Part shown: positions 689 to 59,237 of the stretch, piece by piece
Position numbering within the stretch: the first letter of the stretch is position 1
Layout of the letters: each line of letters begins with the position of its first letter
Source: Crambe crambe
Lineage: Eukaryota; Porifera; Demospongiae; Poecilosclerida; Crambeidae
DNA length: 64,000 bases
Reading direction: 5' to 3'
Assembly: GCA_963924555.1 (NCBI GenBank)
Contig: OZ004585.1
Location: forward strand, 1,377,488 to 1,441,487
Position numbers and translations under genes: made by a program
The notes under the pieces: generated by a model
What the model was told of the DNA's origin: nothing
What the model saw: the letters and a program-made list of their open reading frames with translations, nothing else
Databases searched by the model: none

Positions 689-12144
<11,456 letters not shown>

Positions 12145-31821: not shown

Positions 31822-33109
31822 ATGGAGTACAACTTTGTGTCTGAACCAGATGATATCCTGAAGTGCTTGATCTGTTTAGCAGTAGCTATAGACCCATGGC
31901 AGCATGGGGTTTGTGGCAGGCTATTTTGTGAAATATGTTTGAATGAACATGGCAAAGACAAGCCTTGTCCCAATTGCAGGATGAAGAAGCCTCTACTGCA
32001 GTACTTTAAAGATTCCAAGAGTAAGTAGCTAAAAGCTATAATGAGACAGCTATTACATATATACACTGCCAATTTTAGGTAAGAGAGAGATCGGAGCTCT
32101 CCGTGTCAAATGTAAAAATGTTGAAAGTGGATGCACATCAGAAGCAACTGTTGGTACGCTAGACGCACATTTACTCACCTGCAAGTTCAAGCTGGTCTCC
32201 TGCCCTAACAAGTGCAACACAAACCAACTTTTAATAAAAGACTTAGAAGATCATTTGGAAATAGAGTGTGTGAATAGAGAATATGAATGCCCGCACTGCC
32301 ACAAGAAAGCTACATATGCTGAAATAATGAACAGTCATGATAGCGAATGTGAAAAAAAAGTTCTTTCATGCACCAACATTGAGTTAGGATGCAAAAAGAC
32401 TATGGAATGTGCTAAAATAAAGATGCATGTCAAAAACGACTGTGAATACACTGTGATATCATGTAAGTACGAGAGCCTTGGATGTGGCATGAAGTTGATG
32501 AGGAAAGATATGGGAAAACATGAACTGGATGACAAGGCACACCTCCATCAGGCTCTCAACACTGTGGTATCGTTGAAAACTGAGTTACGATCAGCTCTGG
32601 CAATATCTCGAGAAGGACTGGTTAGATTCAAAGTCACTAATTACAGGGAAAGAAGAAACAACAATGAAACCTACAGCTCAGAGCCATTTTACACTGCACC
32701 TGACGGATACAATAATATGTGTGTCAAAGTATACCCCAATGGGTATGATGATGTCAAGGGTACACACATATCTGTATATGTTTGCATATTGAAAGGCCAC
32801 TATGATGATAATTTGGACTGGCCATGTGTTGCAACTGTTCGACTGGAGTTGCTGAACCAGGTTGCTAATGCTCATCACCACAGTAAGACACTTCTCATCA
32901 GGAAGGAAAATAAAGCACACATCGGGTTCAATTGGGGCATTTCAAAATTCATTCCTCATTCTGAGCTCTCTCCTAATCATGTTCGCTACATACTTCATCT
33001 GAAGGATGACACTCTGTACTTCAGAGTATCAGTACGAGTGCCTAATTATAGGCCTTGGCTGGAGTGCACAGTGCATGGCCACTCTGTCTCAGCAGAAACA
33101 GCCCTCTAG
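31822..33109 (+). CDS. TRAF-like protein, 409 aa, almost no coiled coil
   Basis: Exons 31822-32020 and 32079-33109 (58-nt intron, phase 1), 1230 nt. RING-like domain at residues about 14-56 (CLIC, CGRLFC, CPNC). The zinc-finger block is complete (CPNKCNTNQ, HLEIECVN, CPHCHKKATY, CEKKVLSC). The coiled coil seen in other members is reduced to about 25 residues, so MATH starts at about residue 255 (VRFKVTNYRERRNN, WPCVATVRLELLNQ, HLKDDTLYFRVSV). The C-terminus (RPWLECTVHG) is not hydrophobic and is shared with the 40.2 kb gene. Trimerisation through a long coiled coil is unlikely for this member. It is the likely parent of the 27.9 kb pseudogene and of the 3' half of the 59.7 kb chimera. Confidence 0.87.
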
Positions 33110-33288
33110 CTGGCTTATGATTTATACTGCAACCATATGCTGCAACCTACCCATGTATTTCCAACTATAATTATGTGTGCATTAATTAATACGAGTTTTT
33201 TATAAGCCAGACCCCTTACCCAACCCACCCGCACGCGCGCGAAGGTGCCCTTTCCGGATTCATTACAAAAATTAATGCCCACGAAAAC

Positions 33289-34674
33289 ATGGCTTCCAAG
33301 TTAGTCCCTTCTGGATACGAAGAAAATGACTTCTTATCTGAACCGGATGATGCTCTGAAGTGTTTGATCTGTTTAGCAGTAGCTAGAGACCCGTGGCAGC
33401 ATGGGAAGTGTGGCAAGCTATTCTGTGAGAAGTGCTTAGATGAACATGGGAAAGACAAGCCTTGTCCCAATTGCAGGATGAAGCAGCCACTGTATTTGGA
33501 AGATGCCAAGAGTGAGTGATATAGAAGCTATTAGCTAAACACACACCTATTCTATTCTTTAGGTAAGAGGGAAATCAAAGCACTTCGTGTGAAATGTGAA
33601 AATGCTGAGAGAGGATGTGAATGGGTGGGAACCGTTGGTGAATTACGTCAGCATTTGTTCAGGTGTGGAGCAATTTGCCCTGATGAATCAAAGCAAAAGG
33701 ATACAACCGTGATAGCGTGTAAATATGAGAGCTTTGGATGTGGTGTAAAGTCAATCAGAAAAGATGTGAAAATACATGAACGTATTGACAAAGACTTACA
33801 TCTTCAACTAGCCCTCAATACTGTGACCAAATTGCAATTAGCTAAGAAGGAGAGTGACGCTGAGCTAAAAAGAACTGCATCATCAATGAAGAAAATGAGG
33901 AAAGTAAAAGAATCTATGAAGAGAGAGAGAGATATAACAGAAGCCAAATTGAAATCGGCCATAAAGGAGAAAAACGAAACGGCTAAAGTAAAAGCATCAA
34001 TGAAGAGAGAGAGAGATGCTGCAGAAGCTAAATTGAAATTGGCCATGAAGGAGAAAAATGACATAGCTGTCAAGTTGGCATCGACGAAGAAAGAGAAAGA
34101 TGACATGGAAGGCAAGTTTGTAGCAATGGCAGCCAAGTTGGAGTCATGTAACGTTTTAAAAAGGGATCAGGCAATACTTTTAAGACTAACTGATTATTTG
34201 AGAAATAATCGACCACAGATCTTTTATATTTGCACTGATGGATACAATTTGTCTATAACGGTGTACCCTGGTGGATATTCTGGATATGTATCGGTAAATG
34301 TGTGTTTTCTGGAAGGCAAACATGATGACGAAGTAGACTGGCCGTTTATCGGAACTATTAAACTGGAGTTACTGAATCAGTTGTCAGATATGAACAACCA
34401 CTATAAAAAGATATCCTATTCCAAGAAGGACAATGCACGTGTTGGATCTTCTCGGTGTATTCATCTTATTCCTGAGTCTGAACTCTATTATAACCACTCA
34501 CAGAACACACTATACCTCTTATTCCCTCATGATATGATGTTTCTTAGTGTATCAGTTCAACATGAAGACAGAATCAAAGACAAGAGTTATGAAGCAACGT
34601 ATCTTATTATAACAGCAGCAGTCATCATTTTGTTCTCTTCATCATTTTTTTTCTTCAAACAGAATTTCTGTTGA
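33289..34674 (+). CDS. TRAF-like protein, 444 aa, reduced zinc fingers, repeated coiled coil, C-terminal anchor
   Basis: Exons 33289-33511 and 33563-34674 (51-nt intron, phase 1), 1335 nt. RING-like domain at residues about 24-66 (CLIC, CGKLFC, CPNC). Compared with the other members the middle zinc fingers are missing: after the first finger (CENAERGCEW) the protein goes nearly straight to the last one (ACKYESFGCGVKS). The coiled coil carries repeated 28-residue units (SMKRERDxxEAKLK...KEKN). MATH follows (RLTDYLRNN, WPFIGTIKLELLNQ), then a hydrophobic end (TYLIITAAVIILF) that could be a tail anchor. A near-identical copy is at 60936. About 100 bp of upstream sequence is also conserved between the two copies. 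Confidence 0.88.
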
Positions 34675-34834
34675 GTTGCCATGATAATTAGCTGCTCACA
34701 TTATTGTGGCTAGCTCCATACCACAAAATCACACCTCTCCTCTGCGTTGTGTCCTTCTATTTATAGATATACACAGTGTAGGTCTAATAATAGCTGGCAC
34801 CTATATATAGACTAAACATGATGCGACTCCAAAA

Positions 34835-36985
34835 ATGGCTTCTGAGTTAGCCTCTGGATATGACTGTATCGACTTTGTGTCCGAACCTGATGATAGTTTG
34901 ACATGTCTCATCTGTTTAGCAGTGGCTAGAGACCCATGGCAGCATGGGCATGGAAATTGTGGCAGACTATTCTGTGAGTTTTGTCTAAATAAGCACGGAA
35001 AGGACAAACCTTGTCCCAATTGCAGGATGGAGAGGCCATCATACTTCGAAGATAGCAGGAGTAAGTGATCACTGCATATTTTTTTGAGTGAAAAAATAGG
35101 GAGCCTTAGTTATAGACCGTCTAGCTAAACCCTGGCTCTGGCTTCATCTTATTTCTCAAGTACGCAGACTGTACATCGAATTAGCTAATACTCTGCTTAT
35201 GAGAAAAGGGTATTGGGGCTGGGCTATAGCCTTGTCCCAGGCTCTAAAATTTTGCGGAGCAGACAAATAGTCTTTCCACTGGTACTCTCTTTTTAAACAA
35301 TGTTCATTTAAATGTTTCTCCCAGAGGCACGTGGTTAGCCTGGGTACAAGGCTAGGCTGGGATAAAAAAGTACAATATCAATATTTGATACATAACTTCC
35401 TGTTGGTAGCTACTCTAGCTACAGTGTGCCCTCATCCCAGATCCCATGCATAAATTAATAGTGTAGCATGGGATAAACCAGTGGGGCCTGAAGTGTGTAC
35501 TCATTGAGAATCTAAAGCTACAAGCCATTAATACCCAAATCTAGTACTGATCTGACTATACTCTTCTACTAGGTAAACGAGAAATCAAAGCACTTTGTGT
35601 CAAATGCGGTGAGAAAAGATGCACATGGAAAGGAACTTTGGGAGTGCTAGACCAACATGTGGCCACTTGCAAGTTCACTCAAGTTCCTTGTCCCAAGGAG
35701 TGCAAACAAATCATAAGGAGAAAAGATTTGGAGAAACATTTAAATGAACATTGTTTAAAAAGAGAGTACCAATGTAAGTATTGTGGAAGGAGGGATATGT
35801 ACATTAACATAACCGGTATCCATGACAATATATGTGAAAGAAAAATACTCCCTTGTCCAAATGCTGAATGTGTTGAAACAGTGGAACGTGCTAAAATCAA
35901 TATGCATCTTGAAAATGACAGTGAATATGCTTTAATATCATGCATGTATGAGAGCATTGGATGTGATGTGAAGTTAAAGAGAAAAGATATGGGAGCACAT
36001 GAGCAGGATGATAAGGCACACCTCCATCAGGCTCTCAACACTGTGGTCAAATTACAAGGTGACCTACAATCATTAAAAGTATTCAAAGCATCAGCTAAGA
36101 AAGAAAGGGAACACTTGGCAGTCCAGATGAAGAGAGAGAATGCAATGAGATTGGAATCAGCAATGAAAAGTGTAGCATTGACGGAGAAAGCATGGCAGAC
36201 AAGTTGAAATTGGCAAGAAAAGCTATAACATCATTAAAGCATGAAAAAGAAGCCATATTGCTGTCAGCTTCAAAGGCTCTGGAATCACTGAAGAAGGAAA
36301 ACAAAGATCAAAGAATTAAACTACAATCAGCCAAAACTACAATCAGCCAAAACGACTATAGCATCATTGAAGAAAGATAAGGCAGTTGAAATGACAAAGC
36401 ATTTGATGAAGAGGAATGAAGCACTGAAGGAAGAAAATAAAGATATGGCTTCAACTATTGCAACAATGGAGTTGATAAAGCAAGAAAGGGACAATATTGC
36501 AGCTCAATTAGAAGAATTCATGGAGGGAATTGCATCAATGGAGAGAGATAAACCAAAGAAGTCACAAGTATCAATGGCACGAGAGAATGAAGGTGTCAAT
36601 CAGTTGGAATCTGCTCAAAAAGGAGAATCAATCACATTGAGAATGAAAGATTATGCAAATATAAAGAGAAATGGTGAGTTTTTTTCCTTTACTGTAAGTA
36701 TTGAAGAATACAAAATGTGTATTGAAGTATACCCTGATGGGCAGGGAGACCATGAGGGCACACATATATCAGTACTTGTGAAGCTATTACAAGATAATGA
36801 ACAATCAGCTTGGCCGTTCACTGGAACCATTGAATTCGAGTTGCTCAATCAGTTGGCAGACACTAACCATCACATTAAGACATTATCCCTCAACATTGAA
36901 GAAGATGATGTCACTATATGTTGCTGCAATTATTTGGTTCGTAGGTGCAATTATTTGGATCATAGCTAGCTGTATTTGGAAGTGA
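34835..36985 (+). pseudogene. TRAF-like gene with compensating frameshifts
   Basis: Exons 34835-35060 and 35573 onward. The RING exon and zinc fingers are intact (CGRLFC, CPKECKQ, HLNEHC). In the coiled coil one base is missing near 36191 (paralogues suggest KDMADKL at this point), which leads to a TGA at 36205. Further on, the 16-bp word CTACAATCAGCCAAAA is duplicated in tandem near 36332, which returns the reading frame to the original one, so MATH (ITLRMKDYANIKRN, WPFTGTIEFELLNQ) is in frame with the RING. MATH is cut short after EEDD. A hydrophobic segment typical of the anchors of this family (AAIIWFVGAIIWIIAS) follows in a different frame, ending at 36985. I call it a pseudogene; sequencing error could explain the single-base change but not all three. 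The 512-nt intron is much longer than in neighbours. Confidence 0.75.
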
Positions 36986-38174: not shown

Positions 38175-39309
38175 ATGACCGCTCCTTCTGGCCATGAGTG
38201 TAACTTCATATCTGAGCCCGATGATAGTTTCAAGTGTTTGATCTGTTTAGCAGTAGCTAGAGATCCGTGGCAACATGGGAATGGGAAGTGTGGCAGGCTA
38301 TTCTGCGAGAAATGTCTAAACAAACATGGCAAAGACAAGCCTTGTCCCAATTGCAGGATGGAGCAGCCACTCTACTTTGAAGATTGCAAGAGTAAGTGAT
38401 CGACTCACTAGCTAATACCATTCACTTTTGATGAAATTTTTATTCTCAGGTAAAAGAGAGGTTATAGCTTTCCATGTTAAATGTGATAATGTTGAGAGAG
38501 GGTGTGATTGGGAAGGAACTGTTGGTACACTAGAGAAACATTTAGACTCTTGCAATATCACTCCAATTCCTTGCCCAAAGAAGTGTAAGCACAATGATAT
38601 GATTCGAACTGTAATGAGGAAAGATTTGGAAAGACATTTAGCAGAAGATTGTATGAACAGGGACTATGAATGTACACATTGCAAGAAGAAGGACACATTT
38701 GCCAACATAACAGAAATTCATGACAATTTATGTGGAAAGAAAATAGTTCCGTGTCCTAATATCGGATGCACTGAAAACATGGAACGAGCCAAACTAAAAA
38801 AGCATGTCAATAAGTGTGGTTACACCATAGTCTCATGCAAGCACACACACACTGGGTGTGACAAAAAATTGAGGAGAAAGGATATGAAAGCACATGAACA
38901 GGACTACAAGGCTCAACTCCATCAACCTCTAAATACTATGGCCAAACTACAACATGAATTAAAATCGGCCAGTAAAGACATGGAACCAGCAATGAAGACC
39001 AGAGCCTCAATGGATAAGACAAATAAAGATAACGCTATTAAGTTGAAATCAGCAACAAAGGTCAAGAAATCATTGAAAAAAGAAAATGAGTCAGAATTGT
39101 GGTTGCTGAATCAGTTAGCAGATGCCAACAGCCACCTTACAGGGTATGATCGAAAGAAATGGAAGACTCCCAGGTTCAAAGTCAACCGTAGAGGTAGACT
39201 CAATTATCACCATGGGGGTGGAGTCAATCAGGTCCTATCTTGTATGTGTATAGGATTTCTTCTAGTTTCCCCAAGTATCATTTTGATTTCTGGTTTATGT
39301 CTCAAGTAG
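38175..39309 (+). CDS. TRAF-like protein with vestigial MATH and C-terminal anchor, 358 aa
   Basis: Exons 38175-38391 and 38450-39309 (58-nt intron, phase 1), 1077 nt. RING-like domain at residues about 19-63; two residues (GN) are added between the His and the third Cys (QHGNGKCGRLFC). A full zinc-finger block follows (CPKKCKHND, HLAEDCMN, CGKKIVPCPN). The coiled coil is short and runs straight into ELWLLNQLADANSH, the middle of a MATH domain; its first and last strands are missing. A basic stretch is followed by a hydrophobic end (CIGFLLVSPSIILISGLCL). Ligand binding through MATH is therefore doubtful, and the protein may act as a membrane-anchored RING/zinc-finger protein. The same architecture recurs at 62901, so it is not a one-off lesion. 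Confidence 0.83.
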
Positions 39310-40232
39310 CTAGCATAATAGACTCGTATAATCTCTATTATCAGTAGACCAGAGCCTCCAAGAGCCAGGTTATTTTCATGCCAGGGCACAGCTATGTTTC
39401 ATGTTGGACTTGGCATGAAATTGTGCCCTAAAATGGGAACACTTTATACTGAAATCAGTTTGGAGGCACTGATAGACTCAGCTATAAGTTCCTCCAAGTG
39501 TGTGATTGTTTTTATTGTCTTAGCAGATATGTAGGCTCAATCTTTTTTACTGCATCATTATAGTTAGCACATATTATATAGCTATGGCTATGATCAAAGA
39601 TGACCAGGGAGATCCAACAAAATTAATTATTTTTTCTGTGTTTCTGCTCTAAAGTAGCTAGTATAATTAGAGGAACATAATATGAGCTAATTTAATGTGG
39701 TTACTACAGCCATCATCATCTTAGGCTATGGCAAGAAAGAAATGGTCTATACATGACACATCCATTTTGGCTTGCACTTTCAAGGTCACACATTAGATAA
39801 CTCAGTGCATACTAACTGAGACTTCCTTAACAATCACACCTGTGACCGTGCATGTGTCACTTAAAAAATATCTTTCGGAGCACTTTGGCTTTCATTTTCA
39901 AGGTCACACATTAGATAACTCAGTGCAATAGGAGTGAAGCTGCAGAGGAAAATATATACCACCCTTATAAGTTCCCCTCAGGGCCCCTATTCTGATAAAA
40001 TTCATGGCCTGGAACTAGTGAATAGCTACAATTTTGAAGTATGGTTATTATCAATCCCTAGAGATGTAATATTACACGTGTTCATAATTATATCTTCATA
40101 AGAAATACATGCTGTGTATTATGTCTAGACTCCTTATAAATGGCTCTTTCTAATAGCTACGTACCTGCATGTGACCATGACTGTGTATGATAACTTGAAT
40201 TCACCAAGGAAGTTAGGTAGCTATAACTAACC
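39310..40232. other. Intergenic
   Basis: No gene recognised. The phrase AAGGTCACACATTAGATAAC with TCAGTGCA is present twice (about 39781 and 39899), indicating a local duplication of about 120 bp. Confidence 0.5.
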
Positions 40233-41453
40233 ATGGCTTCTAAGTCAGGGAAAGAAGTGAACGGCCATGATTGTAACTTTGTACCCGAACCAAGCGATTC
40301 TCTGATCTGTTTAGCAGTGGCTAGAGATCCATGGCAGCATGGGAAGTGTGGCAGGCTATTCTGTGAGAAATGCTTGGATGAGTATGGAAAAGACAAGCCT
40401 TGTCCCAACTGCAAGATGGCGAAAGCTATGTACTTGGAAGACAATAAGAGTGAGTGAGAGAAGTTAACATAACCAGGTAGCTATACGATGAAAAACCTCC
40501 AATAAAGGACACTCTGAAAGAGGACAAACCTCTCAATAAAGGACAATCTAAAAGTACCTTAACCTCTCTACAAAGGTAAAAGGTCGGGTCCCAAGTATGT
40601 CCATTATTTTGGAAGTTCAATAAAGTGATTCAATATTGTAAACTTATAATAACTAAAACGTATATGCATAGGTAAAAGAGAGATCGAAATTCTCAGTGTT
40701 AAATGTGATAATGTCAAGGGAGGGTGCCAGTGGTGTGGATCTCTTGCCTCACTTGACGATCATCTTAAAATCATTTGTGAGTACAATATGACATCGTGCA
40801 AGTATAAGAGCATCGGATGTGACGTGCAACTGATAAGAAAAATCATGGGGGCACATGAGCAGGATGATAAGGCACACATCCATCAGGCACTCAGTACTGT
40901 GGTTAAGCTGCAAGAGGATCAAAAGAAATCAGCTAATGCTATAGCACTATTAAAAAGAGGATCGATTGTCTTTAAAGTCACAGATTATGAAAAGAAAAGG
41001 GCTAATAATGAGATAGTTTTATCACGGTCTTTTTATACTGCTGATGGGTACAACATGTGCATTGAGGTGGACACTAACGGGGATAGCGAGGGCAAGGGGA
41101 CACACGTCTCAGTCTACGAGCGTATCTTGAAAGGTGACTATGACGAGGAATTAAATTGGCCATTTATCGGAACTGTCAAGTTTGAGCTGCTGAATCAGTT
41201 GGATGATGCAAACCACCATCACGTGTCCACAAACATTTCTAAAGAAAATAAAGCATGCATTGGAGGTACCTCTTGGGGTAGCACTATGTTCATCCCCCAG
41301 TCTAAGCTCTCTCGTGATCCAGTTAACAACACACAGTACCTGAAGGACAACACTCTGTATTTCAGAGTAACTGTCGAATTATCTGATCGTAAGCCTTGGC
41401 TGGAGTGCACTCCAATTGAACACCCTTTTGGTTCGACAATTGCTCAACAGTAA
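40233..41453 (+). CDS. Short TRAF-like protein, 332 aa, RING lacking its first Cys
   Basis: Exons 40233-40449 and 40672-41453 (phase 1), 999 nt. Relative to all paralogues a 9-nt in-frame deletion removes Lys-Cys-Leu before ICLAVARDP, so the first zinc-binding Cys of the RING is gone. The rest (CGRLFC, CPNC) remains. Only one zinc finger plus the conserved last one remain (GGCQWCGS, SCKYKSIGCDVQL). The coiled coil is about 25 residues and the MATH domain is complete (IVFKVTDYEKKRANN, WPFIGTVKFELLNQ, YLKDNTLYFRVTV). The tail is not hydrophobic. It is the first gene of the 9.7-kb block that is duplicated at 49.9 kb; its copies at 49879 and 59683 are broken. Confidence 0.82.
40487..40625. mobile_element. 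Degraded CAGTGGAACC-family MITE in a TRAF intron
   Basis: It fills most of the intron and has AACCTCCAATAAAGGACA near the left end and CCATTATTTTGGAAG near the right. It is shared at the same position with the copies at about 50139-50276 and 59927-60063, so it was present before the segmental duplication. Confidence 0.6.
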
Positions 41454-41853
41454 ATCCATAATTATGAACCTTTCTGAGTTTATACAAAGTATGAGCTGAA
41501 CAAGTGGCTACATCACACTGATGGCTTCATTATTATCTTCTAATAGCTACGTAGCTAGTTGTTTGAAACTTGGCTAAAAATCACGCACACTCAGCTTCAT
41601 TCAGTGTTCTATGATATCTAGGAAGAAAAAATGTCTATACAAGTGGGAAGTTGTAAGCTGGGGACATACCATCCATCTGTGACCCCCTGCGTGCCCCCTG
41701 GATCCACCCCAAAGTGCGTCACAAAAAATTATTATTGAAAAGGAAGGGGTGCATTGTATAATGATGCTAAAATTACTTGTAGCTATAAGTGCATGATTAA
41801 TATAAATGCCTGCATGGGTAGTTTAAATAAAATGTAGGGGTAGTTAGCTAGTA
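41454..41853. other. Convergent intergenic spacer
   Basis: Lies between the 3' ends of the short TRAF-like gene and the minus-strand membrane-protein gene. It is duplicated at 51085-51495. No further feature seen. Confidence 0.5.
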
Positions 41854-49475: not shown

Positions 49476-49878
49476 TCAGTAGGAAGTCAAAGTCGATACC
49501 CATAACAATTATGTGTGCAATTACTATAGAAATTAAGTACCATTATGTGTGCAATACATTTAGTATAATAACCATTATGTGTGTGCAAATAATAATACCA
49601 CAGTAGGAATTCAGTTGTACCTATGGCCTTTAGCTAATGAACTCACAAAATTTCAGGAAAGATGGGATCATTGGAGCATTTTAATTTTAATGCTTTAACT
49701 CTTTCTGTTTTTTGTATTAAACTGGCATTATCGTTACAACTACACTGATTTCCTTGTAGCTAGTAGCTGCATACTTGCATGTGACCATGCTTGTTGCCAT
49801 TGTGACAACTAGTACCTCCATGTGACTGTGTATGATAACTGACAGTCCTTTGAAGAAGTTTGGTAGCTATAACTAACC
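49476..49878. other. Spacer between membrane-protein gene and TRAF-like copy
   Basis: Noncoding; duplicated at 59238-59682. It contains repeated ATTATGTGTGCAAT words just after the stop codon. The last 90 bp resemble the 5' flank of the 40.2 kb TRAF-like gene. Confidence 0.5.
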
Positions 49879-51084
49879 ATGGCTTCTAAGTCAGAGAAAG
49901 AAGTGAACGGCCATGTACCTGAAGCAAGCGATTCTCTGAAGTGTTTGATCTGTTTAGCAGTGGCTAGAGATCCATGGTAGTATGGGAAGTGTGGTATGCT
50001 ATTCTGTGAGAAATGCTTGGATGAGTATGAAAAAGACAAGCCTTGTCCCAATTGCAAGATGGAGAAAGCCGAGTACTTGGAAGACAATAAGAGTGAGTGA
50101 AAGTGAGATAGTGAAGTTAACATAACCAGCTAGCTATACAGTGAAAAACCTCCAATAAAGGACACTCTGAAAGAGGACAAACCTCTCAACAAAGGACAAT
50201 CTAAAAGTACCTTAACCTCTCTACAATGGTAAAAGATCGGGTCCTAAGTGTGTCCATTACTTGGAGGTTCCAATGTAAAAGTGATTCAATATTGTAAACC
50301 TATAATAACTAAAACGATTATTACGCATGTGCATAGGTAAAAGAGAGATCGAAATTCTCAGTGTTAAATGTGATAATGTCAAGGGAGGGTGCCAGTGGTG
50401 TGGATCACTTGCCTCACTTGACGATCATCTTAAATCATTTGTGAGTACAATATGACATCGTGCAAGTATAAGAGCATCGGATGTGACGTGCAACTGATAA
50501 GAAAAATCATGGGGGCACATGAGCAGGACGATAAGGCACACCTCCATCAGGCTCTCAGTACTGTGGTTAAACTGCAAGAGGATCAAAAGAAATCAGCTAA
50601 TGCTATAGCACTATTAAAGAGAGGATCTATCGTCTTCAAAGTTACTGATTATGAAAGGAAAAGGGCTAACAATGAGATAGTTTTATCACGGTCTTTTTAT
50701 ACTGCTGATGGGTACAACATGTGCATTGAGGTGGACACTAATGGGGATGGCGAGGGCAAGGGGACACACATCTCAGTCTACAAGCGTATCTTGAAAGGTG
50801 ACTATGATGAGGAATTAAGTTGGCCATTTATCGGAACTGTCAAGTTTGAGCTGCTGAATCAGTTGGAAGATGCAAACCACCATCACGTGTCAACAAACAT
50901 TTCTAAGGAAAATAAAGCATGCATTGGAGGTACCTCTTGGGGTAGCACTATGTTCATCCCCCAGTCTAAGCTCTCTCATGATCCAGTTAACAACACACAG
51001 TACCTGAAGGACAACAGTCTGTATTTCAGAGTAACAGTCGAAATATCTGATCGTAAGCCTTGGCTGGAGTGCACTCCAACTTGA
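49879..51084 (+). pseudogene. Copy of the short TRAF-like gene with nonsense and frameshift lesions
   Basis: Corresponds to the 40233 gene. The RING exon has a TAG at 49978 where other copies read CAG (WQHG), and it lacks the DCNF part of the N-terminus. In exon 2 a run of four A in the parent (CTTAAAATC) is three A here (about 50430), shifting the frame to a TGA. Downstream of that, an ATG at 50452 could still open 210 codons covering the last zinc finger and the complete MATH domain, so a truncated MATH protein cannot be excluded. Confidence 0.8.
50139..50276. mobile_element. CAGTGGAACC-family MITE copy in the pseudogene intron
   Basis: Left end CAGTGAAAAACCTCC, right end GGAGGTTCCAATG, AAAGGACA interior; positional counterpart of the copy at 40487. 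Confidence 0.65.
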
Positions 51085-51495
51085 ACACCCCCTTGCATGG
51101 TTCAACGATCATTGCTCAATAGTAAATCCATATGAACCTTCCCGAGTTTATGCAAATGAAAATAAAGTATGAACTGAACAAGCACATCACACTGATGGAA
51201 TTAATAATATTATCTTCTAATAGCTAGTTATTTGAAACTTGCTGTGCACACTCAATGTTATCTAGGAAGAAAAAATATCTATAAAAGTAGGGAAGTTGTA
51301 AGCTGTGGACATACCCTCCTTCTGTGACCCCCTGTGTGCCCCCTGGATCCACCCCGAAGTGTGTCACAAAAAATTATTATTGAAAAAGAAGGGGTGCATT
51401 GTATAATGATGCTAAAATTACTTATACGTAAGTGCATGATTAATAAAAATGCCTGCATGGGTAGTTTAAATGAAATGTAGGGGTAGTTACTAGTA
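51085..51495. other. Convergent intergenic spacer, second copy
   Basis: Copy of the 41454-41853 spacer with scattered differences. No feature of its own. Confidence 0.5.
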
Positions 51496-54400
51496 TCATT
51501 TTCTTTCACCACTCTCCAATAATGCTTCACGTAATTCAGCCATTGCTGTTTTGTTTGGTGCTGTATTATTCTTTCTTGCGATTCCTTCCTCGACTAATTG
51601 AGTATGAAGTGTTGCTTCATTTCGTTTTCTGGCAAGAAACTGCACAAACGCTTTGTAGTACTTCAGTTTTCTTATTCGAAGGTAGACATGATAGGCAAGA
51701 ATACCAAAGAAAATGAAGAAGCTAACAGAAATTGAAACAGTTATACCGTTACATAAAGAGTCATCACTTTTGCCTCTGCTATCCAAGTAATGCAAAGTTG
51801 CTGATAAGATTCCTAAATTGAGAAGAAAACAAAGCTCCAGTAAATTCATATAGATATTTTCATAGATTTCCCTAGCAAAGGTCTTAACAGTTAATATTCC
51901 TGTAAGGACAAGAGCTAATGTATACATGTTTGTCAGCAATGCAGTATCTTTGTAGTTCGCAGCGAATGTAAGGAATAAGAAACAGCGTGTTAGTAACATT
52001 AATCCAGTCCAATAGCGATGCTTTTTGTTGTAAGGAGCATGGTATGCGTCTAGGATGGAGATGAAGGCTGTACTGTGAATCCATCTCAATCCTCGTTTTG
52101 GTGGCAGTGAACGTATACATTGGCCAAATATCAGTACCAGTGTGTAGGGAAGAAAAAGAATCAAAAGAACCAGAAAAGATATGATAAACAGAGGAATGTG
52201 CCTCCCTTTCAAGTAGTCGATATTGCCATCATAGGTCCAGACTTTGTAGGGAGTCAGCTGATCTGTCACATCATCTGCTCTGCCTTCCAATACTTGAGTG
52301 AATGTGAACACTGTGATGATAGTCTGCAGTATCTTGCTGTATGACAAGAGAAAGAGAGTAGCCAAAATGGCTATGCTGTTCCTGCCAAATATTTTCATAG
52401 CAGTCGATGAGTAGTAACTTGCTATTATGATCGCCCCCACAAGAAGCCAAATATAAAGAGGAAAGACGAACTGCAGCCAAGTCTTGTAATAGGCATCCAT
52501 ACCAGAATAAAAACATGTCTCGATTCCAAGATCTAGATTAACCCATGATATGAAGACGAAGAGTATTGGATGAATGGAACAATAGTTGAGACTTGTTAGT
52601 CCACTGATGGAGAGAGTGTTTGCATAAAATATCAGTCCATTGAGAGTTCCTGCAGAAACGGTTATGTTGCAGACTAACAAGAACGTTACTAGCACTACTC
52701 CTGCCACAGCGAACAGAACTGTCAACCAAATGAAAGCATACTTGGAGCTCGTGCACTGCAAGCATTTTGACCCTCCAAGCGCAATGCTATAGTTGTTTTG
52801 ACATGAGCCACACAATATCCCACTGCGATGATTAGCACATTGACTGTCTGGGTTGGAAATACTGATAACATCGTCTGTGCTTTTACAGTAATCGAAGGGA
52901 CAGTTTCTATATATTTTCAGATTATCTTCATCGTATCTCAACCAAATCAGTTGCTTTCTTTCAATAGAATTAGTCTCGATATCGCAAAGTGAAATATTAA
53001 AATATTTGGTTAATCTTCTGTCGCAGATGCACCTGTCCTTCTTCTGTTCAAACCCTACAGAGCATGGTAGCACTGTAACATTAATGGTGATGACAGATAA
53101 CGAGGAGTCTCTACACGGTCCCTCAGGTTTAAGTACCAATGTTGCTACAGATTCTTTGGCATAAACATGATAGTGGAGATTCTCACATTCATTGCTAATT
53201 TCTCTCCTTTCTTCTCCTTTGCCTAGCTGTGCTGATATATCGCTATAACCTGCTCTTACAAAGCCTGGAACTGGATTTTCGTCCTGATCCAATACAGCAA
53301 CAGCTATACTCAAAGTCTCTCCCCGTACTTTTCTGGCATTGAATTCTTTTTTACTGCAATCAGGCTGGAATCCATCTCTGCAGAAACACACATTAAGCGG
53401 TTCTGATGTTATTTCGAGTGGAATTGTATCATCATATCGTGAAATATCTTTGAATAGTCTCATTGCCGTTCCCAATGGTGTGATGGTATCAGCTGGTACG
53501 CATCTGTCTAGCAAACCACCATAGAGGACTGAACCTTGGCTTGCTGTGTTGTTCTTAAATATGAAATGAGATTTGTTGTTGTAATGGGTGCCTACTCTTA
53601 CAAGACACTCACCGTCTGGTCCATAATTTTTTACACAATATTTATCAAGAAAAAAAATTGCTCCACCTTTACCGCTTGAGGACTTGACGACATTATCGGA
53701 TAGATTAACAATAGATGCATTTAGTAAGATGATGTTTGAATTGATAACGTACATTGCCCCTCCATTTCCCTGAGCAATATTGTGTGTTATATTGCAGGAT
53801 CTATAGAAAACTCTGGATGAATCATCTATAAAAAGTGCTCCTCCATTAACTAATGCTCTGTTGCTAGTGATGATGTAATCTGTGAATTGTATAGTGCTTT
53901 TATGAAAGGAAGCAAATCCACCTGATCCAGCCGAATTGAATTTTGAAGAGCCACCGATGAATTCCATCCGGACTGAGTCAAGTCTACTGAAGTATACACC
54001 ACCCCCACTTCTTCCTGCATGGTTTGATATAAAATTACTGTCAGCAAGAAACGAATGATAGTACACTCCAATTGGATTTCCTCCAATGTAGTCTCGTAAA
54101 TAAACTGCACCTCCTGAATCTTCCGCTGAATTGTGCTTAAAATCACATTTAGTCATAGTCAATTGTGACTTATAACTATAAATAGCACCTCCAAGTTTTC
54201 TTGCATGATTATCCAGAAATACTGTGTTTGTAATGTCTATAATTGATGAACTCGAGTGCAAAGCACCACCTATAAAAGCTGTATTGTTAGAGAATACACT
54301 CTTTGACAATAATACATGAGCTGACTCAAGGTACAAAGCACTGAAATTTGTGCCTTCTTTATGATTTCCAACAATAGCTACAAATAAAGATTCGTGAATT

Positions 54401-54948
54401 ATAATTGAAGAATCTGCACATGATATTGCACCACTATTGGAATGGAACTCAGAGAATATTATTTCAACATTACTTATATTGTTAATGATAACAGGATAAT
54501 TCCTTTTGTTGTCAAGAAACGAAATGTTAAAAATTAAAACTGAACTCATTCCAGAATGCTTGCTGAATTCCAGAGTACAAGAAGTAATATTAGTAGACCA
54601 AATTGCTAGATCTTTGATGTCTTTAAATACTAAGCGTGTTTGCAGCCGACAAGTAATTGCTCCAAACCCTAGCAATGGACTAATCTCCAATTCTGTCACA
54701 TTAAAACTTGTGAGAGTGTGATTGCTGGGAATCACATGCAATCCTGGAAGAAGGTGTAATCTTACTAACCGTTTATTAGACCATAACCTTGAGTTAAACT
54801 CGCGAAGGTTATAGCAAGGATATAAACTCCTGCCATTCAGAGCACATGATCTATTTGGTGTAACATAGTAGTCCAGAGCATCTGTCTGAGAGATACTCAA
54901 CAAAAATAATAACAAAATCATGCTAATGACCAGCTGGAATATGAGCAT
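51496..54948 (-). CDS. Beta-helix ectodomain polytopic membrane protein, 1150 aa (minus type, copy 2)
   Basis: Single exon. The ATG at 54948 corresponds exactly to that of the 45303 gene. Same layout: signal peptide, beta-helix (NNTAFIGGALHSSSS, NSAEDSGGAVYLRDY), Cys-rich linker, polytopic membrane domain and tail ending REALLESGERK. Differences from copy 1 cluster in the ectodomain, for example near the 160-250 region, where SALYLESAHVLLSKS replaces GVLHFKLTHVALTDS, and near 300-330, where FSRLDSVRMEF replaces FHNSYKILMEF. The Cys-rich linker and membrane domain are nearly unchanged. This is the pattern expected for either diversifying selection on the ectodomain or gene conversion of the membrane half. 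Confidence 0.88.
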   Translation of the reverse strand: MLIFQLVISMILLLFLLSISQTDALDYYVTPNRSCALNGRSLYPCYNLREFNSRLWSNKRLVRLHLLPGLHVIPSNHTLTSFNVTELEISPLLGFGAITCRLQTRLVFKDIKDLAIWSTNITSCTLEFSKHSGMSSVLIFNISFLDNKRNYPVIINNISNVEIIFSEFHSNSGAISCADSSIIIHESLFVAIVGNHKEGTNFSALYLESAHVLLSKSVFSNNTAFIGGALHSSSSIIDITNTVFLDNHARKLGGAIYSYKSQLTMTKCDFKHNSAEDSGGAVYLRDYIGGNPIGVYYHSFLADSNFISNHAGRSGGGVYFSRLDSVRMEFIGGSSKFNSAGSGGFASFHKSTIQFTDYIITSNRALVNGGALFIDDSSRVFYRSCNITHNIAQGNGGAMYVINSNIILLNASIVNLSDNVVKSSSGKGGAIFFLDKYCVKNYGPDGECLVRVGTHYNNKSHFIFKNNTASQGSVLYGGLLDRCVPADTITPLGTAMRLFKDISRYDDTIPLEITSEPLNVCFCRDGFQPDCSKKEFNARKVRGETLSIAVAVLDQDENPVPGFVRAGYSDISAQLGKGEERREISNECENLHYHVYAKESVATLVLKPEGPCRDSSLSVITINVTVLPCSVGFEQKKDRCICDRRLTKYFNISLCDIETNSIERKQLIWLRYDEDNLKIYRNCPFDYCKSTDDVISISNPDSQCANHRSGILCGSCQNNYSIALGGSKCLQCTSSKYAFIWLTVLFAVAGVVLVTFLLVCNITVSAGTLNGLIFYANTLSISGLTSLNYCSIHPILFVFISWVNLDLGIETCFYSGMDAYYKTWLQFVFPLYIWLLVGAIIIASYYSSTAMKIFGRNSIAILATLFLLSYSKILQTIITVFTFTQVLEGRADDVTDQLTPYKVWTYDGNIDYLKGRHIPLFIISFLVLLILFLPYTLVLIFGQCIRSLPPKRGLRWIHSTAFISILDAYHAPYNKKHRYWTGLMLLTRCFLFLTFAANYKDTALLTNMYTLALVLTGILTVKTFAREIYENIYMNLLELCFLLNLGILSATLHYLDSRGKSDDSLCNGITVSISVSFFIFFGILAYHVYLRIRKLKYYKAFVQFLARKRNEATLHTQLVEEGIARKNNTAPNKTAMAELREALLESGERK

Positions 54949-55769
54949 CAAAGATTTTTTCTCTGTTTTTTGCTACTCAGTGCTGCTTTTAAGGGAGTCC
55001 TCTGGGTTACTTTGTTGCCATATTAGGCCCTACACTTTAAAAATGAAAGTGTGTACTGCACACTAAATTGTCCCAATACTCACACTAAAATCAAAACAGT
55101 GTGTGCATTGGGACAAAATGGTGTGAAAAGAATCAAATCAGCTATGTGTTATAAACTTACACTTCGCTTATAGCTCCTAGCTACGTACTTTCCCAACTTT
55201 AGAATATTTTCAACTGATCTATTCTGCTCAAGCCTAGCTATGTGTCCACAGCTATTCAAGATGCTTTCGAAGTTTTACAACACTTTCATTTTTACAGTGA
55301 AAAGAGTCAAATCATTATAATTAGCTGTGTTATAAACTTTCACTTCGCTTATAGTTACCTAAGCTACTTTCCCAACTTTAGAATGTTTTTCAACTGATCT
55401 ATTCTAGCTAGCTACATGTGTCCACAGCTATTCAAGATGCTTCAAAGTTTTTCCAAAGTGTAGCTAGCTATCTTTAATTCATACCCAACTTTGGATGCTT
55501 TCTAAACAATCTACTACTCATTCTGAGTAGCTGTTAGCTTTCAGAAGATGAGTTTATAATAATTAAAGGAATTAGCTATTGAAAAAGTAACTTTCCCAAC
55601 TCATTTCTAAGATCATAATAACTAAACTCTTTACTTTCAATTTATGAATAGCCCCTAATTGAACTTCTCGTGCATGCACTTTTGAATTCTTTTACACTGC
55701 TATAAATTAGAGCCAAGTCTAATAAATCATAAGAGATTGTTTAAGATCACTAGTCAGCTAGCTAAAAGG
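54949..55769. promoter_or_regulatory. Divergent promoter region, second pair
   Basis: Both gene-proximal edges match the 45.3-46.0 kb spacer. TATAAAT at 55701-55707 is 69 bp before the plus-gene ATG, the same distance as in the first pair. The middle holds a rearranged copy of the 28.5 kb palindromic MITE: one arm and centre at about 55033-55125, the other arm at 55281-55299. A roughly 170-bp segment (AAAAGA..TCAAATCA onward, starting about 55126 and again about 55300) is duplicated in tandem. Confidence 0.6.
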
Positions 55770-58700
55770 ATGAATTTCCTGTTGGTTTTATTGACATTAG
55801 CTCAAGCGCATAAAACAGCTGCTCTGATCCACTACATCACACCTATTTCCACTGAAAACGAAACTTGTACTGTGAATGGCACGAATTTAAGACCTTGTTA
55901 TCAACTTTACCAATTTAATTCAATGTCATTTTCTAGTAAAAAAGTATTACTACTTATTCTACCAGGAGTACATATGATTCCTAACAATCACACTTTCAAA
56001 GCATTGAATTTAAAGGAACTAGAAATTGAATCGTATCTCGAAGCTGAAAAAGAAACAATTAACTGCCAGCAAACTCGATTGTTATTTCAAAACATTGAAA
56101 TCCTAACAGTTCGATCATTAAAGTTTTCTTCTTGCGCTTTAGACTTTATTCAAGGTCATGATCTGGAGAGAAGCAGGACTGTTCCTGAAGTTGATATTGT
56201 CCAGTGCATATTTGTTGACAACAGTTTTGATTATCCAGTGAACATCAAGGATGTAAGAGTTTCAATAATTGGATGTGAATTTTATTCCAATAATGGTGCC
56301 ATATCTGCTGCATCATCTATTGGATCAGCAGTAGTAACTCTTGACATAGTTCTTAATAATTTCATGGATAATAATCGCAGAGAAGGCAAGTTTGGGACTC
56401 TTCATACTGAATCAATTCGCCTTACTTTAATTTCAAGCAACTTTACTAGAAATACTGCAGCTTTAGGTGGGGCAATTTATTCCAATTCATCACAGATTGA
56501 AATGAAGAACAGTATTTTCATTGCAAATCATGCAAACATCTCAGGTGGTGCAATGTATTGCATTTCTTCTCAAGTGACAGTATATTCTTCTCAGTTTGAA
56601 AAAAATTCTGCAGATAAAAGTGGAGGTGGACTATATATTATAAGGAGCCGTACACTTATTTTTGAGTCACGATTAGTTTTCAACACAGCAAAAGACGGTG
56701 GTGGTGCAATACACTGTGATGAGACCAATAATCTACAGTTTGTCGTACTGCTCAATGGCTCTGCAGCTTTCAACTCTGCCGAAAATGGTGGATTTGCATA
56801 TCTTTCGAGATGTTATTTAGTAATATATCAATATGCCATCAGTAGCAACAGAGCACTAATGAATGGAGGAGCCATATTTTCTGATAATTCTGTTGTTAGC
56901 TTTCGTAATGCCTTCTGCAACGTCACACAAAATACTGCCAAAGATAGTGGTGGGGCATTGTATTTGAGAAATTCTAACGTATTCATTCGGAATACTTCTA
57001 CCGTCTTTTTCATAAACAACAGTGCATTATCTCCAAGAGGTAGAGGTGGAGCTATTTTCGTTCTTGATGAAGATTGCGAAAGAAAGATTGGTCCAGCCAC
57101 ATTTTGCTTCGTTTATCTTGATTATAACAGATATAATAAAACACCCTTTGTTTTTTTGAATAATGAAGCCAATGAAGGTTCGGTGCTCTATGGTGGATTA
57201 TTGGACAGGTGTACACCAGAACCAGATGGTGATTATCCACTAGGAATCGGACTGAAGACATTCAAACATTTTTCTGATTATAAACAAATTCCACTTGCCA
57301 TAACATCAGAGACAGTAAAGTTATGTGTATGCATCAATGGGACGACTCCAGATTGTAGTATTAATAAGGAAGTAAGTTCTACAAAGATGAGAGGAGAAAC
57401 GCTAACTCTGACGATAGCAGCATTGGATCAGGATGAACGATCAGCACCAGCAACAGTTATGGCAAGTTACAAGGAAATATCAGCACAGATAGGCGAAGGA
57501 GAAGAGAGAAGTTATATATTTAATATATGTGAAGAAGTACACTATCATATCTATGCTAAAAATTCTACAGCAACTTTGGTTCTGGAGCCAGAAGGTCCTT
57601 GTGGAAATACCCCACTGTCTATTATTACAATTAATATCTCAATGATGCCATGCAGTGTAGGATTTGAACAAGATACTGACAGATGCGTATGCGATAGAAG
57701 GCTTTTACACATAGAAGAGTGCAATATTGATACTCGATCCATCCAAAAAAATAAATCAATTTGGTTAAGGTACGATGAAAAATATCTTAAAATCTCTGAA
57801 AGTTGTCCTTTTGATTACTGTAAAGATGGTGCTATTGATATTTCTTTCCCCGATAATCAATGTGCTAATCATCGCAGTGGGATATTGTGTGGCTCATGTC
57901 AAAATAAGTATAGTATTGTGCTTGGAGGGTCGAAATGCTTGCAGTGTACGAGCTCCAAGTATGCTTTCATTTGGTTGACAGTTCTGTTTGCTGTGGCAGG
58001 AGTAGCGCTAGTAACATTCTTGTTAGTCTGCAACATAACCGTTTCTGCAGGAACTCTAAATGGACTGATATTTTATGCAAACACTCTCTCCATCAGTGGA
58101 CTAACAAGTCTCAACTATTGTTCCATTCATCCAATACTCTCCGTCTTTATATCATGGGTTAATCTAGATCTGGGAATCGAGACATGTTTTTATTCGGGTA
58201 TGGATGCCTATTACAAGACTTGGCTACAGTTCATCTTTCCTCTTTATATTTGGCTTCTTGTGGGGGCGATCATAATAGCGAGTTACTACTCATCGACTGC
58301 TATGAAAATATTTGGCAGGAACAGCATAGCCATTTTGGCTACCCTCTTTCTCTTGTCGTACAGCAAGATACTGCAGACTATCATCACAGTGTTCACATTC
58401 ACTCAAGTATTGGAAGGCAGAGCAGATGATGTGACAGATCAGCTGACTCCCTACAAAGTCTGGACCTATGATGGCAATATCGACTATTTGAAAGGGAGGC
58501 ACATTCCTCTGTTCGTCGTAGCCTTGCTGGTTCTTTTGATTCTCTTTCTTCCCTACACACTGGTACTGATATTTGGCCAATGTTTATGTTCACTGCCACC
58601 AAAGCGAAGATTAAGATGGATACAAAATACAGCCTTCATCTCCTTCCTAAACACCTATCATGCACCTTACAACAAAAAACATCGCTATTGGACTGGGTTA

Positions 58701-59237
58701 TTGTTACTGACACGCTGTGTTTTATATTCTGTGTTTGCCAGCAGCTACAAAAGTAATGCTTATGCATTATTAACGAATGTGTACACAATGACACTTGTTC
58801 TTTCAGGAGTACTCACCATCCAGACATTCTCCACAAGGATTTATAAGCAATTCCACAACAGCATGCTCGAACTTTGCTTTCTGCTCAATTTAGTGGTCTT
58901 ATCAATGACTCTCCATTACCTTAAGGGTAAGGGAAGTAATGCTGATGCCCTATGCAACAGTATAACTGCTTCTATCTCGATAAGTTTCGTGATTCTTATT
59001 GGCATTTTCATCTATCATGCCCATCTCCAGATGAAAAAGTTTCCATTTTATATATCGCTTCAGAATTTTTTGCTTGAGAGATGTCATAAAGGTCAACTTC
59101 AAACTCCCCTAGTTGAAGAACCTGTAGGAGATAATCCCAAGGAACTGTACGATGCTTCAGTCAACAAACAGCCAACCACAACAATGATAGAGCTACCCAA
59201 ATTAGTGGAACAAGAAGAAGAAAAGGACATGAGCTAA
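55770..59237 (+). CDS. Beta-helix ectodomain polytopic membrane protein, 1155 aa (plus type, copy 2)
   Basis: Single exon. The ATG at 55770 is chosen because it matches the 45993 gene and follows the TATA box at the same distance; 33 nt upstream are open but start only with TTG. Layout as in copy 1: signal peptide, beta-helix, Cys-rich linker (CVCDRRLLHIEEC, HRSGILCGSCQNK), polytopic membrane domain and a tail with PKELYD (residues 1123-1128, bases 59136-59153). Compared with copy 1 it has small in-frame deletions in the ectodomain (for example the HV before QGHDLERS and the DNS before QYAISSN), while the last 400 residues are almost identical. Confidence 0.88.
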   Translation: MNFLLVLLTLAQAHKTAALIHYITPISTENETCTVNGTNLRPCYQLYQFNSMSFSSKKVLLLILPGVHMIPNNHTFKALNLKELEIESYLEAEKETINCQQTRLLFQNIEILTVRSLKFSSCALDFIQGHDLERSRTVPEVDIVQCIFVDNSFDYPVNIKDVRVSIIGCEFYSNNGAISAASSIGSAVVTLDIVLNNFMDNNRREGKFGTLHTESIRLTLISSNFTRNTAALGGAIYSNSSQIEMKNSIFIANHANISGGAMYCISSQVTVYSSQFEKNSADKSGGGLYIIRSRTLIFESRLVFNTAKDGGGAIHCDETNNLQFVVLLNGSAAFNSAENGGFAYLSRCYLVIYQYAISSNRALMNGGAIFSDNSVVSFRNAFCNVTQNTAKDSGGALYLRNSNVFIRNTSTVFFINNSALSPRGRGGAIFVLDEDCERKIGPATFCFVYLDYNRYNKTPFVFLNNEANEGSVLYGGLLDRCTPEPDGDYPLGIGLKTFKHFSDYKQIPLAITSETVKLCVCINGTTPDCSINKEVSSTKMRGETLTLTIAALDQDERSAPATVMASYKEISAQIGEGEERSYIFNICEEVHYHIYAKNSTATLVLEPEGPCGNTPLSIITINISMMPCSVGFEQDTDRCVCDRRLLHIEECNIDTRSIQKNKSIWLRYDEKYLKISESCPFDYCKDGAIDISFPDNQCANHRSGILCGSCQNKYSIVLGGSKCLQCTSSKYAFIWLTVLFAVAGVALVTFLLVCNITVSAGTLNGLIFYANTLSISGLTSLNYCSIHPILSVFISWVNLDLGIETCFYSGMDAYYKTWLQFIFPLYIWLLVGAIIIASYYSSTAMKIFGRNSIAILATLFLLSYSKILQTIITVFTFTQVLEGRADDVTDQLTPYKVWTYDGNIDYLKGRHIPLFVVALLVLLILFLPYTLVLIFGQCLCSLPPKRRLRWIQNTAFISFLNTYHAPYNKKHRYWTGLLLLTRCVLYSVFASSYKSNAYALLTNVYTMTLVLSGVLTIQTFSTRIYKQFHNSMLELCFLLNLVVLSMTLHYLKGKGSNADALCNSITASISISFVILIGIFIYHAHLQMKKFPFYISLQNFLLERCHKGQLQTPLVEEPVGDNPKELYDASVNKQPTTTMIELPKLVEQEEEKDMS

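Follow-up and report, generated by a model that had tools for sequence, protein, structure and literature searches.

Paired beta-helix membrane proteins and TRAF-like genes in a tandemly duplicated cluster of the sponge Crambe crambe

In this study, a stretch of 64,000 nucleotides from the sponge Crambe crambe (contig OZ004585.1, hereafter the window) was found to hold a tandemly duplicated block of receptor and TRAF-like genes, a chimera of two TRAF types, and one tract in which the synonymous divergence between the paired genes R1 and R2 collapses. We believe, with a probability of about 0.6, that this is a birth-and-death multigene cluster of paired surface receptors, in which TRAF copies drive duplication, R1 and R2 undergo gene conversion, and the co-duplicated TRAF need not serve the receptors. 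In the mechanism that we propose, TRAF-like copies flanking the receptor pairs would serve as direct repeats, unequal recombination between these copies would multiply the intervening DNA, and gene conversion between R1 and R2, which are inverted copies, would preserve their similarity in the juxtamembrane region and TM1-5 as their other parts diverge. If this is true, the cluster is an example of an early animal lineage keeping a receptor family that changes outside and stays uniform inside by means of conversion between inverted copies.

The duplicated block and the TRAF-like array

The duplicated block is approximately 9.7 kb long and consists of a TRAF copy, R1 and R2. Block a (40178..49822, + strand) carries T40, R1a and R2a, and block b (49823..59626, + strand), its tandem copy, carries T49, R1b and R2b. 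The overall identity of the two blocks is 92-93% (91.8% and 93.0% in the aligned pieces, with 533 mismatches in 9381 aligned bases, plus gaps). The divergent 5' region common to R1a and R2a (45304..45992, no strand assigned) is strongly different from its counterpart at 54949-55769, with an identity of 71.6% in one alignment and of 86-90% with approximately 470 gap columns in another. The start of each block lies immediately before a T40-type RING exon, and a third 5' end of this kind was found at 59627. Because the whole block is duplicated in tandem at this identity, the co-duplication of a TRAF-like gene with each receptor pair, as claimed in the initial annotation, is real. The receptor pair is present in at least three copies, namely those of blocks a and b and a relic at 12.4-13.0 kb (12378..13014, no single strand), in which the 3' end of an R1 (-) is fused head to head with the 3' end of an R2 (+) and the interior is missing.

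The initial annotation also counted about 12 TRAF-like genes and pseudogenes within 31822-59237. This number suits the window as a whole, which has 13 loci, but only six of the 13 lie wholly inside that interval. T16m is on the - strand and all the other loci are on the + strand. Eight loci have readable models. T16m (15421..16861), which has a hydrophobic tail, is readable only as a three-exon model with a weak second donor. T18 (17960..19712, 534 aa) combines RING, zf-TRAF and MATH without a hydrophobic tail, T25 (25204..27169, 560 aa) has a strong C-terminal hydrophobic segment, and T31 (31822..33109, 409 aa) is an open two-exon model with RING, zf-TRAF and MATH. C-terminal hydrophobic segments also occur in T33 (33289..34674, 444 aa, RING and MATH), in T38 (38175..39309, RING and zf-TRAF, MATH lost) and in T61 (60936..62328), a copy of T33 with 96.5% identity. 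T40 (40233..41453, 332 aa) is an open two-exon model with a shortened zinc-finger region and an intact MATH. Four loci are broken: T28 (approximately 27850..28903), a T31-related relic with many stops; T34/36 (34835..36969), which is frameshifted and has an incomplete MATH; T49 (49879..51084), a pseudogene whose RING exon contains a stop and whose exon 2 is frameshifted, with the MATH frame still open; and T59 (59683..60692). The remaining locus, T63 (62901..64000), is 96.3% identical to T38, of which it is a copy, and is truncated at the end of the window.

The broken locus T59 is a chimera, which is of the T40/T49 type up to 60311 and of the T31 type from 60337, so that two TRAF types are joined within 25 bp. 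At 60101-60311 all but two of the informative sites listed are T40/T49-like, and at 60337-60450 all those listed are T31-like. Beyond the chimera, T61 and T63 repeat T33 and T38. The stretch 62894-63998 is collinear with 38168-39282, the segment ahead of T40, and for this reason another T40-type TRAF with an R1/R2 pair is predicted not far past 64000. Judged by its sequence, T59 shows that TRAF copies can recombine with each other, and unequally. Such recombination would suffice to copy the intervening DNA, and therefore the co-duplication of the receptors could be passive. From this one chimera, which lies elsewhere in the array, we infer that TRAF repeats may have caused the duplication of the receptor block and that the co-duplicated TRAF would not need to serve the receptors.

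The window also contains a fragment of mitochondrial cytochrome b, in which TGA stands for three of the four Trp. AGG occurs in it at a site that we take to be Arg in cytochrome b, and its codon use presumably fits a non-bilaterian animal. No RNA genes were found in the window.

Receptor architecture, selection and the R1/R2 tract

Four intact, single-exon receptor ORFs of 1149-1160 aa were identified, with R1 and R2 head to head in each of two pairs: R1a (41854..45303, -, 1149 aa, tail of approximately 60 aa) with R2a (45993..49475, +, 1160 aa, tail of approximately 69 aa), and R1b (51496..54948, -, 1150 aa) with R2b (55770..59237, +, 1155 aa). R1b is a copy of R1a (dS 0.126, dN 0.047) and R2b is a copy of R2a (dS 0.091, dN 0.029). 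Chlam_PMP repeats were detected in all four at 40.1-54.3 bits against a Pfam cut-off of 20.6, and the earlier description of four intact beta-helix/polytopic membrane proteins in two divergent pairs was thus confirmed. R1a consists of a hydrophobic N-terminus, which by its sequence is likely a signal peptide, a beta-helix ectodomain with the Chlam_PMP repeats, a Cys-rich juxtamembrane region, seven to nine TM helices and a tail. R2a has the same layout, and its N-terminus is under the hydropathy threshold. Only about seven segments of the receptors exceed this threshold, and TM2 and TM6 were assigned manually. The loop charges are mostly compatible with a tail inside, but the R2a tail carries a net negative charge (8 K+R vs 11 D+E), which does not favour this orientation; the tail is probably cytoplasmic. 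No relatives of the receptors were found in the viral contigs, prokaryote genomes and phages scanned, and neither "Chlam_PMP" nor "polymorphic membrane protein" occurred among the literature matches listed. We believe that R1 and R2 are most likely surface recognition or adhesion receptors, an assignment that is putative.

The AlphaFold model of the beta-helix, built from a four-row alignment, was of moderate confidence, with 10-residue means of 56-92 over residues 21-420 except for a mean of 40 at residues 291-300. Foldseek comparison of this model with the PDB gave 273 matches at E up to 10, none of them at E <=0.001, and the TM-scores were low; nearly all of the best 50 of the 273 are, as we take them to be, beta-helix proteins. 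The beta-helix fold is often carbohydrate-binding. For the TM domain, four-row alignments gave no usable AlphaFold model (mean pLDDT 39). Its comparison with Pfam returned only DUF7630, in the juxtamembrane part and under the cut-off, and no polytopic receptor or channel family, and its comparison with PDB sequences returned a single match to a soluble enzyme (E 0.81) and no channel family.

Between the a and b copies, the dN/dS of the beta-helix was 0.53 for R1 and 0.89 for R2, and that of the TM regions was 0.10-0.17. This indicates that the constraint on the beta-helix is weaker than that on the TM part. The N-terminal region of R1 had a dN/dS of 0.67, higher than that of the R1 beta-helix, on the basis of few changes. 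In the beta-helix, dN is not greater than dS (bootstrap P 0.002 for R1 and 0.343 for R2). Relaxed constraint therefore explains the data as well as diversifying selection does, and positive selection on the ectodomain is not claimed here.

In the juxtamembrane region and TM1-5, R1 and R2 show a collapse of synonymous divergence. Among codons for the same residue, 6-11% had a synonymous change inside the tract and 43-46% outside it (13-26 of 212-230 codons inside the best segment, 185-194 of 419-431 outside), and this was the case in all four R1-R2 comparisons. The best segment ran from alignment codon 729, 741 or 745 to codon 976 and scored 99-141. The highest scores among the 5000 shuffles made for each comparison were 37.5-45, with the best segment sought anew in every shuffle. 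The sites separating R1 from R2 numbered 0-3 per 50 codons in columns 750-949, 20 and 12 at the two edges, and 29-59 elsewhere. In R1a, the tract (alignment codons 729-976) occupies 42457..43200 (-) and covers the Cys-rich juxtamembrane region and TM1-TM5; the corresponding parts are 48096..48839 (+) in R2a, 52099..52842 (-) in R1b and 57858..58601 (+) in R2b. A collapse of this kind is a signature of gene conversion, and we infer that conversion was its probable cause. In principle, a similar pattern could arise from selection acting on synonymous sites.

TRAF domains and membrane tails

Among the eight two-exon models scanned, seven (T18, T25, T31, T33, T38, T61 and T63) had a C3HC4-like RING pattern; the exception was T40, in which the first Cys of the CxxC, one zinc ligand, is absent. 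The RING exon of T18, the only one run against Pfam, stayed under the cut-offs of the RING models (best E 3e-4). The zf-TRAF score was over the cut-off in T16m, T18, T25, T31, T34 and T38 and under it in T40 (23.4 vs 27 bits), and there was no zf-TRAF match in T33, T61, T36 or the scanned T49 ORF. MATH exceeded a curated cut-off in T16m, T18, T31, T33, T36, T40, T49, T59 and T61, was just under the Pfam cut-offs in T25 (27.1 vs 27.4 and 24.8 vs 32), and was not found in T38. Several of the translations contain a charged, repetitive stretch between the zinc fingers and MATH.

Five of the nine TRAF C-termini examined were hydrophobic and TM-like, and these TRAFs are possibly membrane-anchored. 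To our knowledge, typical TRAFs have no TM segment. No TRAF with a membrane tail was described in the titles and abstract openings among the matches listed; the term "traf" also catches "traffic", and absence from print is thereby not proven. If real, membrane-tailed TRAFs would represent another mode of positioning TRAF adaptors. According to an excerpt of PMC6125299, R393 and Y395 of TRAF2 bind the Glu of Px(Q/E)E. In the array, the paralogues vary strongly at the canonical peptide-contact positions, which are not kept in most loci. T40 and T49 have E and D in place of R393 and Y395, and T31 and T59, with K and Y, are nearest to the canonical pair.

Alternative readings and known systems

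It had been suggested in the initial annotation that co-duplication reflects a linked function. In a receptor-adaptor module of this kind, a cluster TRAF would bind the R1/R2 tails and signal on recognition, and the cluster would be held together for it. A TRAF copy was indeed duplicated with each receptor pair, the loop charges mostly fit an inside tail, several TRAFs with a TM-like tail could share the receptor membrane, the MATH part of T40/T49 has a dN/dS of 0.21, and TRAF genes of the sponge Halichondria panicea respond to LPS according to an excerpt of PMC8242945. The tails of both R2 copies also contain one PKELYD, which matches Px(Q/E)xxD (minor) and PxExx[FYWHDE] (TRAF6-type). However, T49 is broken, the T40 RING is without one zinc ligand, and the equivalents of R393 and Y395 are lost in both. 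All four tails were scanned for TRAF-binding motifs, and those of R1a and R2a also for motifs set after excerpts of PMC6125299 and PMC9597381. The major motif Px(Q/E)E, even as the looser [PSAT]x[QE]E, was absent from all four, and the R1 tails contained none of the TRAF motifs, including Px(Q/E)xxD, Px(Q/E)xT and PxExx[FYWHDE]. Among 5000 shuffled R2a tails, 243 had Px(Q/E)xxD, 734 had PxExx[FYWHDE] and 1550 had one or more of the five motifs in the search; the sole match to a canonical TRAF-binding site is therefore compatible with chance, and the relic R2 copy reads PKESYG at this place. Together with the recombination seen at T59, these results did not bear out a linked function, and we consider the module unlikely. 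They also illustrate that, where an array is rich in repeats, joint duplication of genes supports a functional link only weakly. It is rather improbable, in our opinion, that the cluster forms a compact locus for recognition in an early animal lineage, in which receptors with a conversion-kept membrane core and diversifying ectodomains would meet membrane-anchored TRAF E3 adaptors with diversified MATH grooves in the membrane, by docking other than Px(Q/E)E.

R1 and R2 could instead serve as multi-TM channels or transporters capped by a beta-helix, and their turnover could be drift in a redundant family. Several TM helices under strong constraint (dN/dS 0.10-0.17), a low-dS tract spanning TM1-5, as though the membrane core mattered most, and a beta-helix dN/dS below 1, compatible with relaxed constraint, would fit such proteins. 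The match of the TM domain to no Pfam or PDB channel family speaks against them, although this is weak evidence from four sequences, and we regard this reading as doubtful. It is very unlikely, in our view, that the assembly created the tandem blocks by joining two haplotypes of a single block end to end. Their identity over approximately 9.7 kb is conceivable in a highly heterozygous animal, but the window is without N, the array runs on through the third T40-type 5' end and the chimeric TRAF into the T33/T38 copies, and the identity of the blocks, taken in 200-bp steps, ranges from 79.5% to 100%. Moreover, dS between the blocks is 0.09-0.13, which is high for alleles. We prefer the birth-and-death cluster.

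Such a cluster can be compared with several known systems. A lineage-specific expansion of full TRAFs has been described (PMC5758549), and it resembles the present array in this respect; the excerpt of that source does not mention a link to beta-helix receptors. Like the TRAF family, several loci here have RING, TRAF zinc fingers and MATH in the same order, and their best PDB sequence matches are TRAF5 and TRAF3, whereas the tandem array of 13, the mostly lost peptide-contact positions and the hydrophobic C-termini (5/9) set them apart. R1 and R2 share with the polymorphic membrane proteins of Chlamydia the PMP repeats over the Pfam cut-off and the beta-helix model. The Chlamydia proteins end in a C-terminal autotransporter barrel; in contrast, the C-terminus of R1/R2 consists of helical TM segments and matched no barrel family in Pfam. 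In the sea urchin SpTransformer family and the Hydractinia and Botryllus histocompatibility loci, genes occur as tandem copies with recombination between the copies. Their protein folds presumably differ from those of R1/R2 and the TRAF-like proteins, and the cluster of C. crambe, here known from one sequence, is similar to them in its tandem copies and inter-copy recombination.

Receptor pairs and their membrane core

The strongest new results are the putative R1–R2 conversion tract, the TRAF–TRAF chimera, and the hydrophobic TRAF tails. The ORF scan gave two head-to-head pairs of large single-exon ORFs, R1a (41854-45303, minus strand) with R2a (45993-49475, plus strand), and R1b (51496-54948, minus strand) with R2b (55770-59237, plus strand). 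The initial annotation, which described receptor pairs amid TRAF-like genes, was right in substance. The window holds four ORFs with Chlam_PMP repeats above the Pfam cut-off and 13 TRAF-like loci. All four ORFs also have a DUF7630 match adjoining the membrane part, below the Pfam cut-off. The N-termini of R1a and R1b are above the hydropathy threshold and those of R2a and R2b are below it; the latter two look like signal peptides by visual judgement only. Beyond residue ~730, R1a and R2a have seven well separated segments above the threshold plus one that overlaps the first, and with TM2 and TM6 placed by hand the total is nine. In this nine-TM reading, the net charges of the inside and outside loops are 0 to +8 and -2 to +1, respectively. 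The tail of R1a has a net positive charge (14 K+R, 7 D+E), but that of R2a has a net negative one (8 K+R, 11 D+E).

AlphaFold with a four-row alignment modelled the beta-helix with a 10-residue mean pLDDT of 56-92 at residues 21-420, except for residues 291-300, where it falls to 40, and gave no usable model outside it (whole-protein mean pLDDT 45.6; TM part alone 39). Foldseek with this model returned 273 matches at E up to 10, none of them counted at E <= 0.001. The best 50 of the 273 have low TM-scores, and we take almost all of them to be beta-helix proteins. They are tailspikes, enzymes acting on pectin and other polysaccharides, an adhesin, a phage tail, and proteins with pentapeptide repeats.

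Block a (40178-49822; T40, R1a, R2a) recurs as block b (49823-59626; T49, R1b, R2b); the two differ at 533 of 9381 aligned bases. The dS was 0.126 for R1a/R1b, 0.091 for R2a/R2b, and 0.76-0.79 for R1 versus R2. When only same-residue codons were compared, the synonymous differences inside the best segment of the four R1–R2 comparisons were 23/215, 17/230, 26/229, and 13/212 codons (alignment codons 741, 729, 729, and 745, respectively, each to 976), and those outside were 191/431, 191/419, 194/424, and 185/430. The segment scores were 99-141, against a shuffle maximum of 37.5-45 (5000 shuffles per comparison). In R1a, the tract corresponds to residues 702-949 and spans the Cys-rich juxtamembrane stretch together with TM1-TM5 and the beginning of the loop after them. 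R1 and R2 still differ in the remaining TM segments and in their tails. Because only same-residue codons were counted, protein-level selection as the sole cause of the low synonymous divergence is ruled out. From the sequence, conversion between the inverted R1 and R2 copies would be the simplest cause. Within the tract, R1/R2 divergence is comparable to a/b divergence, so such a conversion would be of roughly the same age as the block duplication.

Between the a and b copies, dN/dS for R1 and R2, respectively, was 0.53 and 0.89 for the beta-helix, 0.67 and 0.29 for the N-terminal region, and 0.32 and 0.15 for the linker; the tract and the remaining TM part had values of 0.10-0.17. In none of the receptor regions compared did dN exceed dS, and relaxed constraint is therefore a possible reading. 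In one 200-bp ectodomain step (44635-44834), R1a/R1b identity was 79.5%, against 86-95% in the surrounding steps, and this step may be an imported piece. The intergenic 5' region common to R1 and R2 (45304-45992, 54949-55769) diverges more between blocks than the adjoining genes (71.6% when aligned alone; 86-90% when whole blocks are aligned, with ~470 gap columns). Of its two copies, only that of block a gave a 46-bp repeat in the tandem-repeat scan.

The TRAF-like array and its recombination

Twelve of the 13 recognisable TRAF-like loci are on the plus strand. The proposed array of about 12 holds for the window, but only six loci (T31, T33, T34, T38, T40, and T49) lie wholly inside the interval first assigned to it (31822-59237). 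Most loci share an intron 3' of the RING exon (donor A|GTRAGT, acceptor AG|GT), and that of T25 (25421-25703) is longer than at most others and contains a dispersed-repeat-like stretch. Gene models are readable for 8/13 loci; T28, T34/36, T49, and T59 are broken, and T63 runs off the end of the window. The frame of T40 is open, but the first cysteine of its RING is missing.

T59, directly after block b in array order, is T40/T49-like at all listed informative sites except two at 60101-60311 and T31-like at every listed site at 60337-60450, which places a crossover within ~25 bp of common sequence. Beyond it, T61 is a copy of T33 (96.5%) and T63 a copy of T38 (96.3%); unlike in the T33-T38 stretch, no T34 copy lies between them. 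The T59 chimera with T61 and T63 behind it is direct evidence of unequal recombination between TRAF copies. At 12378-13014, the 3' ends of R1-like and R2-like genes are fused head to head, and the divergent pair has therefore existed at least three times. Both genes of this relic are joined at nearly the same position, as if the inverted-repeat centre had been lost.

The predicted proteins of T16m, T25, T33, T38, and T61 (15421-62328) have hydrophobic C-terminal ends. In the last 45 residues, the 19-residue hydropathy was 2.2-3.4 for these five and at most 0.13 for T18, T31, T40, and T49; T33 and T61 are mutual copies, and their tails were counted once. As background, 27 of the 463 stop-to-stop frames of at least 45 codons in the window, the genes themselves included, reach 2.0, as do 4/454 in one mononucleotide shuffle.

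Elsewhere, an SRCR (scavenger-receptor cysteine-rich) domain array (1260-8000, plus strand) contains near-identical ~1.65 kb repeats (93-96%), and a VWD domain with a weak AMOP match below the cut-off (9354-10483, plus strand) perhaps belongs to the same gene. A cytochrome b fragment of mitochondrial type (29901-30134, minus strand), with TGA for 3/4 Trp, is either mitochondrial DNA copied into the nuclear genome or a chimeric join. A tandem repeat (81-bp unit, 3.6 copies) lies at 22981-23266. The 64-kb window gave no tRNA or Rfam matches.

TRAF docking and the receptor tails

A functional link between the receptors and the TRAF-like proteins, as the initial annotation suggested, is possible yet unsupported. 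The major TRAF motif was absent from all four receptor tails in the motif scan. PKELYD in the R2a and R2b tails matches the minor motif and the TRAF6 motif, PxExx[FYWHDE] (PMC9597381). Among 5000 shuffled R2a tails, 243 had the minor motif, 734 the TRAF6 motif, and 1550 one or more of the five motifs.

We aligned seven cluster sequences over 131 columns, with T36 from a broken locus among them, and, of the hot-spot residues, ranked the R393, Y395, and D399 columns by variability against all columns. D399 was included as what we take to be a third peptide-contact position of TRAF2. The seven residues at R393 are R, Q, I, K, T, E, and E, a variability found in only 2/131 columns, its own included; the corresponding numbers were 21/131 for Y395 and 9/131 for D399. 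In TRAF2, R393 and Y395 are the residues that contact the Glu in Px(Q/E)E, according to a paper that also catalogues the motifs (PMC6125299). T40 and T49, the TRAF copies adjoining the receptors, have E and D at these two places. With these residues, no major motif, and PKELYD compatible with chance, the canonical docking mode is not supported, and docking of TRAF to the receptors by a mode other than the canonical one is possible.
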